A stretch of 40,741 nucleotides of DNA from Streptomycetaceae bacterium (GTDB lineage Bacteria; Actinomycetota; Actinomycetes; Nanopelagicales; Nanopelagicaceae). The translations under genes were made by a program, and so were the position numbers. The DNA lies in contig JAIXPU010000022.1 of the NCBI GenBank assembly GCA_027486075.1, positions 1 to 40,741 of the forward strand, read 5' to 3'. The notes below the pieces were generated by a model. That model saw nothing but the letters and a program-made list of their open reading frames with translations, searched no databases and was not told the DNA's origin. Shown one piece after another: positions 15,649 through 38,040 of the stretch (position 1 is the first letter of the stretch; each line of letters starts with the position of its first letter).

Positions 15649-16110
15649 TTACTTCTTCTTCTTTGCAACCTTCTTAGCTGGCTTGCGCTTTGCAGGAGCC
15701 TTCTTGGCAACCTTCTTCTTAGCTGCTGCCTTCTTCTTAGCAGGAGCCTTCTTCGCAGCCTTCTTCGCTGCTGGCTTTGCTGCTGCCTTTGGAGCAGCCT
15801 TTACCTCTGGCTTTGGAGCTGGGCCGAGCTTACGATCGCCAGCAATTACTTCCTTGAGAGCCTTTGCAGGTAGGAAGCGAGCCTTCTTTGAAGCCTTGAT
15901 CTTGATGGTTTCGCCGGTGAATGGGTTACGTCCCATACGTGCCTTGCGATCAACCTTCTTAAACTTACCGAAATCATTGATCATGACATCGTTGCCTGCT
16001 GACATGTTACGAACGATTGTGTCGAACACGATGTCTACAGCGTGAGCTGCTTCTTTCTTGCTGCCGTTGAAGTGTGGGGCCAACGCAGCGATGAACTGGG
16101 CCTTATTCAT
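15649..16110 (-). CDS. hup: HU-family DNA-binding protein with Lys/Ala/Pro-rich C-terminal tail (HupB-type)
   Basis: MNKAQFIAALAPHFNGSKKEAAHAVDIVFDTI, RNPFTGETIKIKASKKARFLPAKALK, tail AKKAAKKAPAKKKAAAKKK. Confidence 0.95.
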   Translation of the reverse strand: MNKAQFIAALAPHFNGSKKEAAHAVDIVFDTIVRNMSAGNDVMINDFGKFKKVDRKARMGRNPFTGETIKIKASKKARFLPAKALKEVIAGDRKLGPAPKPEVKAAPKAAAKPAAKKAAKKAPAKKKAAAKKKVAKKAPAKRKPAKKVAKKKK

Positions 16111-16186
16111 TCAATTCCCCTTAAGTTTACGCGTAAATAATTAAGCTTTTGCTTAACTGAGTAAAACTTAAACCTATTTAAGGGGT
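16111..16186 (-). promoter_or_regulatory. Structured HU mRNA leader with inverted repeats covering the SD
   Basis: CCCCTTAA 16117-16124 vs TTAAGGGG 16178-16185; TTAAGTTT 16121-16128 vs AAACTTAA 16164-16171; TTAAGC-TTTT-GCTTAA 16141-16156. Confidence 0.55.
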
Positions 16187-16226
16187 GAGAGCGTTATTGG
16201 CGCACGCGTGTCGCACTTTTATATTC

Positions 16227-16250: not shown

Positions 16251-16337
16251 TAAAAAACTCTCATTCTGGAGTTGAGACTTTTACAAGTACTACTCACCCC
16301 GTTGGCAAAAATCAGCGATTTACGCTCATTTTGCGCC

Positions 16338-18413: not shown

Positions 18414-19133
18414 GTGGATAAGAAGAATAGCGGAGTTGGCGTATTAGATAAAGCCGTAGCAATTCTGGCAACCCTTGAATCTGGCCCCCACTCCCTCGCG
18501 GAGTTGGTCGCAGCAACAGGTATCGCTCGTCCTACCGCTCACCGCCTGGCGGTTGCACTTGAATTCCATCGCCTGGTAGCCCGCGACCTTAACGGGCGCT
18601 TCATCATCGGGCCTCGCTCAAGTGAGTTGGCCGCAGCTGCTGGCGAAGATCGACTTATCGCAGCAGCAGCTCCAGCGCTGGCAGCGCTGCGTGATGCAAC
18701 TGGTGAATCTGCTCAGCTCTATCGCCGCCAAGGAGATATCCGAATCTGTGTGGCTGTTGCAGAACGGCTCTCAGGTTTACGTGACTCTGTTCCAGTGGGT
18801 GCATCGCTGACGATGCAGGCAGGATCTGCTGCGCAAATTTTAATGGCTTGGGAAGATTCCGAGAAGATTCATCGCGGGTTAAAGAGCGCACGATTTACTG
18901 CAGCCCACCTTGCTGCGGATCGCCGCCGCGGTTGGGCGCAATCAGTGGGTGAACGTGAAGCGGGTGTCGCATCAGTATCTGCCCCAGTTCGTGGACCTAA
19001 TGGGAAGGTAATCGCTGCTGTATCAATTAGCGGACCTATTGAACGTTTAGGGCGCCAACCTGGTCGCTTACATGCCGCCGCTGTTGTCGCAACTGCAGAA
19101 CGATTAACTGAGCACTTAAAGTCTGGAAAGTAA
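18414..19133 (+). CDS. IclR-family transcriptional regulator (LtbR/NdgR-like)
   Basis: GVGVLDKAVAILATLESGPHSLAELVAATGIARPTAHRLAVALE HTH; divergent from leuCD, as for C. glutamicum ltbR and Streptomyces ndgR. Confidence 0.93.
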   Translation: MDKKNSGVGVLDKAVAILATLESGPHSLAELVAATGIARPTAHRLAVALEFHRLVARDLNGRFIIGPRSSELAAAAGEDRLIAAAAPALAALRDATGESAQLYRRQGDIRICVAVAERLSGLRDSVPVGASLTMQAGSAAQILMAWEDSEKIHRGLKSARFTAAHLAADRRRGWAQSVGEREAGVASVSAPVRGPNGKVIAAVSISGPIERLGRQPGRLHAAAVVATAERLTEHLKSGK

Positions 19134-37908: not shown

Positions 37909-38040
37909 TTCCAAGGCACGATTAAGAGACCTTGGAGCGGTAACTACACGCGAGGCGAAACAAATGAATCTTCGATCGAAGTTCACAGATGCTTACATCT
38001 GGAAACCACTACCGAGGACCAGATGTCACCCGGCGTGTAA
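37909..38040 (-). promoter_or_regulatory. Structured rpsO-pnp intergenic RNA
   Basis: TACACGC 37945-37951/GCGTGTA 38033-38039; CTTCGATCGAAG 37970-37981; ACATCTGG 37995-38002/CCAGATGT 38019-38026; CCAAGG 37911-37916/CCTTGG 37930-37935. Confidence 0.55.

Follow-up and report, generated by a model that had tools for sequence, protein, structure and literature searches.

The leader of the HU (hup) mRNA in the stretch of actinomycete DNA analysed here (40,741 nucleotides; hereafter the window) very probably contains a real structured RNA, which in our judgement is probably a cis-regulatory element that Actinomycetes conserve specifically at hup. The core of the element is a short hairpin just upstream of the Shine-Dalgarno (SD) sequence, preceded at a fixed spacing by a single-stranded motif, and it seems likely to affect either the translation of hup or the stability of its mRNA. 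A preliminary description of this DNA had proposed that three nested inverted repeats on the SD control translation. That the leader is a structured RNA under selection, placed on the ribosome-binding site, is upheld here; masking of the SD by the 8-bp outer stem did not prove to be a conserved feature.

The hup locus and the fold of its leader

The window is part of a genome of 1.13 Mb in 153 contigs. Its HU protein is 97% identical over 103 residues to that of an uncultured Candidatus Planktophila, the nearest named genome record. The gene order is leuC-leuD-hup-acyltransferase-gpsA-ddl, where gpsA and ddl are names that we presume from the translations and general knowledge. The features of the hup locus are as follows (positions in the window, all on the minus strand):

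15649-16110 (-): HU (hup) coding sequence, 153 amino acids with a lysine-rich tail; Bac_DNA_binding (HU) protein by Pfam (PF00216, E 5.5e-27)
16110-16108 (-): HU start codon ATG
16117-16122 (-): Shine-Dalgarno AAGGGG, 6 nt 5' of the ATG, kept in all family members seen
16124-16129 (-): closing stem P1, 3' arm TAAACT of the window lineage, pairs with 16174-16169 (fold; arm co-variation)
16126-16137 (-): TTTACGCGTAAA, a perfect DNA palindrome that forms the 3' side of P1 in most family members
16139-16158 (-): core hairpin P2, AGTTAAGC-AAAA-GCTTAATT (fold, covariation, match to covariance model R1)
16161-16175 (-): AGGTTTAAGTTTTAC, 5' of the hairpin; site of the class-wide single-stranded motif TAnCGT / TAAGTT and 5' side of P1
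16169-16174 (-): closing stem P1, 5' arm GGTTTA (fold; arm co-variation in the genus)
16179-16185 (-): outer 5' arm CCCCTTA, pairs with 16123-16117 TAAGGGG, a lineage-specific masking of the SD (fold)
16182-16189 (-): CTCACCCC element, conserved in the genus, whose CCCC is that of the outer 5' arm (genus comparison)
16208-16214 (-): GCGACAC element at about -105, kept across many actinomycete families

The leader quoted in the preliminary description is exactly the minus strand from 16185 to 16108, and the three inverted repeats named there are all present: CCCCTTAA/TTAAGGGG, GGTTTA/TAAACT (the 3' arm of which adjoins the outer-stem arm) and AGTTAAGC-AAAA-GCTTAATT. RNAfold, named there as a check, found this leader more stable than shuffled sequence, at -21.1 kcal/mol where dinucleotide shuffles averaged -11.3 (sd 3.1), which gives z -3.2, and 3 of 200 shuffles equalled it; with flanks, z was -2.7 and 1 of 200 shuffles was as good. 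A sigma-70 promoter scan gave no match on the minus strand, and a terminator scan, which sought a G+C-rich hairpin with a U run, found none at P2 on that strand.

Several neighbouring features were noted. A terminator-like CTCTCAA...TTGAGAG-T6 follows leuD (16251-16279, -) and is kept in relatives, its stem being weaker in the window copy. A gene for an IclR-family regulator (18414-19133, +) lies divergent from leuC, an arrangement that we take to be that of leucine regulators such as LtbR. The sequence GCGACAC(AA) is found 103-114 nt 5' of the hup start in many actinomycete families (16208-16214, -; class leaders L222-L278), usually followed after 23-28 nt by GGTnnTTGTG; this fixed pair may be a promoter, a regulator site or the first part of the leader. 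A coevolving first stem formed by the upstream GCGACACAA...TTGTG was considered and found unsupported (p=0.88).

Conservation of the hairpin and its confinement to hup

HU matches in 296 genomes of the window's family (Nanopelagicaceae-like; the genus is close to Ca. Planktophila) yielded 148 distinct leaders, which were compared with about 95 HU leaders from other Actinomycetes. The family has a near-universal core of GCGTAA-A/G-TTT, about 8 free bases, a GTTAAGC-NNNN-GCTTAAC hairpin, and then ATTTACGCGTAAATAAGGGG and the start codon. The nested TTAAGC-AAAA-GCTTAA hairpin of the preliminary description thus turned out to be the conserved core, with covariation both in the family and across the class. 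Its sequence varies among family leaders with the pairs preserved: in an alignment of 44 leaders, two-sided changes were present in 5 of 7 hairpin pairs, and 94% of the paired cells could pair vs 15-45% when the alignment was slid.

The closing stem P1 varies in the same 44 leaders only by wobble pairs (GC to GU, AU to GU), which fits an RNA in the mRNA sense. Because P1 hardly varies, a tree-aware scan restricted to the family showed no covariation in it. The register of its partner is shifted in the window's own subgroup; in a register-free test within the genus, P1 arms matched better within lineage types than when swapped (-10.2 vs -9.1 kcal/mol, p=0.004, by a permutation that ignores kinship). 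Judged by sequence comparison, P1 is an addition in the window's family, where this stem, with an asymmetric bulge of 9-12 nt, places the hairpin right beside the SD.

Across the class, 40 hup leaders that were selected in other actinomycete families by the HU protein only have a hairpin in the corresponding position, with C/T-C/T-T-A-n-C-G-T or T-A-A-G-T-T before it. What is conserved in the class is a short hairpin 25-45 nt 5' of the start codon (5-9 bp, in most cases with a loop of four bases, shortly before the SD) with a T-A-n-C/G-G/T-T motif at a fixed spacing before it; the motif-hairpin distance is 11-15 bases in both family and class elements. The energy of the hairpin in the 40 leaders had a mean z of -1.7 against shuffles and was below zero in 37. 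Two-sided, pair-preserving changes affected 7 of 7 stem pairs in an alignment of 31 leaders from 19 families, whose covariation score was 0.53 vs 0.28 for shuffled and at most 0.14 for slid alignments. A tree-aware null, computed with a script modelled on R-scape over 1653 column pairs, put four hairpin pairs among the top five (ranks 1, 2, 4 and 5). With only the pairs of the structure counted, the two strongest had E values of about 3e-4 and 1e-3, and over all 1653 column pairs no pair reached E<0.05 (best 0.078). The two arms of the hairpin matched at -8.5 kcal/mol within species vs -5.8 kcal/mol when swapped between families (p<0.0003).

A sequence profile built without the window's family gave no match to the leaders of that family, so common descent with the class element rests on the layout, the TAAGTT forms and intermediate genera. 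The possibility that the class motif acts as an anti-SD was not adopted, since its complementarity to the SD was no better than in its own shuffles (mean z -0.26), though matched pairs slightly exceeded swapped ones (p=0.02).

Covariance models were built from the 44 aligned family leaders (R1) and from the class set (R2); the family was included in the training of R2 and R3. In 225 of the 296 genomes of the family, R1 had a single match, which lay at hup; it had only one in the window's own genome, and the window's leader scores 42.5 bits; the window's own leader was found genome-wide by R1 and not by R2 or R3. At the thresholds used, R2 matched in 43 of 197 class genomes, and the best eight non-training matches outside the family all lay directly upstream of hup (8/8). 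R3 gave 111 matches from 395 class genomes at the thresholds used, many of them from one large genus (f19/g19) that was already in training and hence not independent lineages. Among 40 newly inspected R3 matches, 37 were directly upstream of hup (the hup of L344 was read by eye); all 33 inspected matches with E<0.04 precede hup, and three that do not had E values of 0.044 to 0.072. As R2 and R3 match in these fractions of the genomes only, divergent or absent versions are common. A search of the phylum outside Actinomycetes returned one new match only, which was not before hup.

At the window hup leader, Rfam 15 had no family at gathering score and nothing meaningful up to E 10, and no match up to E 0.5 was obtained in 18 related loci. 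With Rfam as the reference for known motifs, we found no description in the literature consulted of an actinobacterial hup leader or of HU autoregulation through such an element.

The element might instead stabilise the hup mRNA or mark a processing site (for RNase III, J or E), sustaining high expression without ligand sensing. HU is abundant, hairpins at the 5' end are known in general as a common protection of mRNA, and outside the window's genus the SD is masked no more than by chance, all of which would suit such a role. So would a finding in S. aureus (PMC3386247), where hu mRNA was recovered with RNase III mutants and has a higher stability when RNase III is missing. A plain stabiliser has no need of a conserved single-stranded motif at a fixed spacing from the hairpin, and it would be expected at other highly expressed genes, yet the model matches are essentially confined to hup; we regard this alternative as unlikely, though it is the strongest of those weighed here.

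The outer stem and the palindrome

The 8-bp stem CCCCTTAA:TTAAGGGG was found in the window and in one close pair of leaders (L003, L004); 7-bp versions occur in L038 and L040, and six other genus members have a different 8-bp version. From its distribution in the sequences compared, this SD-masking stem appears to be almost restricted to the closest relatives of the window. Most members of the genus retain CCC(C) opposite GGG(G). No co-variation of the extension beyond these bases was seen across the genus (p=0.34). The outer CCCC arm is missing from most other genera and present in genus g57. The predicted median opening of the SD was below that of shuffles in 75% of the genus leaders and not consistently so in most other genera. 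The outer stem was accordingly rejected as a conserved element: the covariation among relatives on which the preliminary description had staked its reading is present for the inner hairpin and absent for the outer stem.

The same data bear on whether the leader is an RNA thermometer or a simple switch that masks the SD through CCCCTTAA:TTAAGGGG. Such a device could draw on the retained CCC(C), on the low SD opening in the genus and on the extreme rarity of SD opening that is predicted with the CCCC arm. In the energy model, the full leader keeps its SD closed over the whole range of 4 to 37 °C, with P(SD open) at about 1e-10 to 1e-7 (below 2e-7); once the CCCC arm is removed, this probability becomes about 1e-5 at 4 °C and reaches 0.014 at 37 °C. 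The stem thus does not melt at any temperature computed between 4 and 37 °C, which speaks against the temperature-sensitive control suggested in the preliminary description; neither an opening of the SD on warming nor a masking stem kept in relatives was found. Together with the absence of co-variation in the extension, the restricted distribution of the arm and a possible other cause for the conservation of CCCC (see below), this makes a thermometer or simple switch the least probable reading considered, and a very improbable one.

If transcription starts upstream of 16185, masking of the SD in the window lineage is predicted to be near-complete; the CCCC arm, by our reading a later elaboration, could mask the SD completely in this lineage. 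HU is too abundant for an SD that is permanently closed: some factor may open it, transcription may proceed without this fold forming, or the transcript may begin downstream. In the genus, CTCACCCC co-occurs with GGGGTGAG, about 110 bases apart (both in 58 leaders, neither in 14, discordant in 9), and the conservation of CTCACCCC may therefore have another reason. The two sequences (16182-16189 and 16293-16300, -) make up an inverted repeat that encloses the leuD terminator and the presumed hup promoter region. In an RNA reading through from leuD into hup, the upstream GGGGTGAG could pair with the CCCC arm and so release the SD.

The repeats might also be sites in the DNA, in which case a regulator of hup transcription would bind TTTACGCGTAAA as its operator, and the hairpin would be a second palindromic site. 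TTTACGCGTAAA is a perfect palindrome, it has a near copy, TTTACGCATAAA, upstream of hup (16254-16243, -) that is conserved in the family, and its five exact loci in 1.13 Mb exceed chance by a rough estimate. The other exact copies are mostly intragenic, with one intergenic, and do not make up a regulon; leaders outside the family lack the palindrome and have the hairpin. The sequence of the hairpin drifts freely with pairing kept, some of the changes in pairs are G-U wobbles consistent with the mRNA strand, and several members of the genus have a broken palindrome (AAGCGTAAAAC) yet keep a P1 partner. DNA sites are therefore improbable as the explanation. A regulon based on the palindrome was rejected, since the same site was not found before several genes of the window's genome. 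The intergenic copy of TTTACGCGTAAA (L293, 1501-1512) lies between CACCCC and TATCACCC, before an open reading frame on another contig of the same genome, and resembles pieces of the hup leader.

Known systems and the supply of HU

As a mechanism for the conserved cis-regulatory RNA, we infer that a factor would bind the motif and the hairpin and thereby alter the access of ribosomes to hup, as in the leaders of ribosomal proteins. HU prefers bent, bulged and nicked nucleic acids and binds some RNAs. Because the element is confined to hup and HU favours such nucleic acids, our guess is that this factor may be HU itself; that HU is the ligand of its own leader is offered tentatively. We are equally cautious about the wider proposal of a class-wide autogenous RNA operator, in which HU would bind the motif-plus-hairpin in its own leader and set its own translation.

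The hup element shares with autogenous leaders a conserved structure near the SD of one gene and its confinement to that gene. Autogenous ribosomal-protein leaders, among them the actinobacterial L17 and L31 candidates, likewise have a small structured 5' leader beside the SD, serve the gene of one nucleic-acid-binding protein only and are conserved class-wide (PMC7247131). In contrast to these, hup encodes a nucleoid protein, and its leader has no known ligand and no mimicry of an rRNA site; the motifs of that study (PMC7247131) were not found at hup. Actino-pnp RNA (RF01688) is also an actinomycete-specific cis-regulatory leader of a housekeeping gene, but it differs in gene (pnp), sequence and fold and does not match the hup leader; a copy is present in the window at 37964-38023 (-) with 60.6 bits. 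RNA thermometers (ROSE, fourU) resemble the window lineage in that the SD is base-paired in the 5' leader, whereas the hup stem is predicted to be too stable to melt, lacks fourU or ROSE features and masks the SD in a lineage-specific manner. The hupA mRNA of Salmonella is reportedly controlled in trans by the ProQ-dependent sRNA RaiZ, which, like our reading of the hup leader, would be a post-transcriptional control of HU mRNA at the ribosome-binding site; RaiZ differs in being a trans-acting sRNA of Enterobacteria, and its system is not known to include a conserved cis element of the hup-leader kind.

Of the repeats in the window's leader, the most visible one, the outer stem, is the layer with the least conservation, and the oldest is the inner hairpin. 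HU is among the most abundant bacterial proteins and, in Actinomycetes, a nucleoid protein that is essential or important; to our knowledge, little is known of how its amount is matched to DNA. A small leader RNA that is confined to hup, is not in Rfam and is conserved in actinomycetes as different as streamlined lake bacteria and the mycobacterial and large-genome families provides a mutable target for HU dosage. If HU does act on its own leader as an autogenous operator, the supply of a nucleoid protein would track free DNA sites, as that of ribosomal proteins tracks rRNA.
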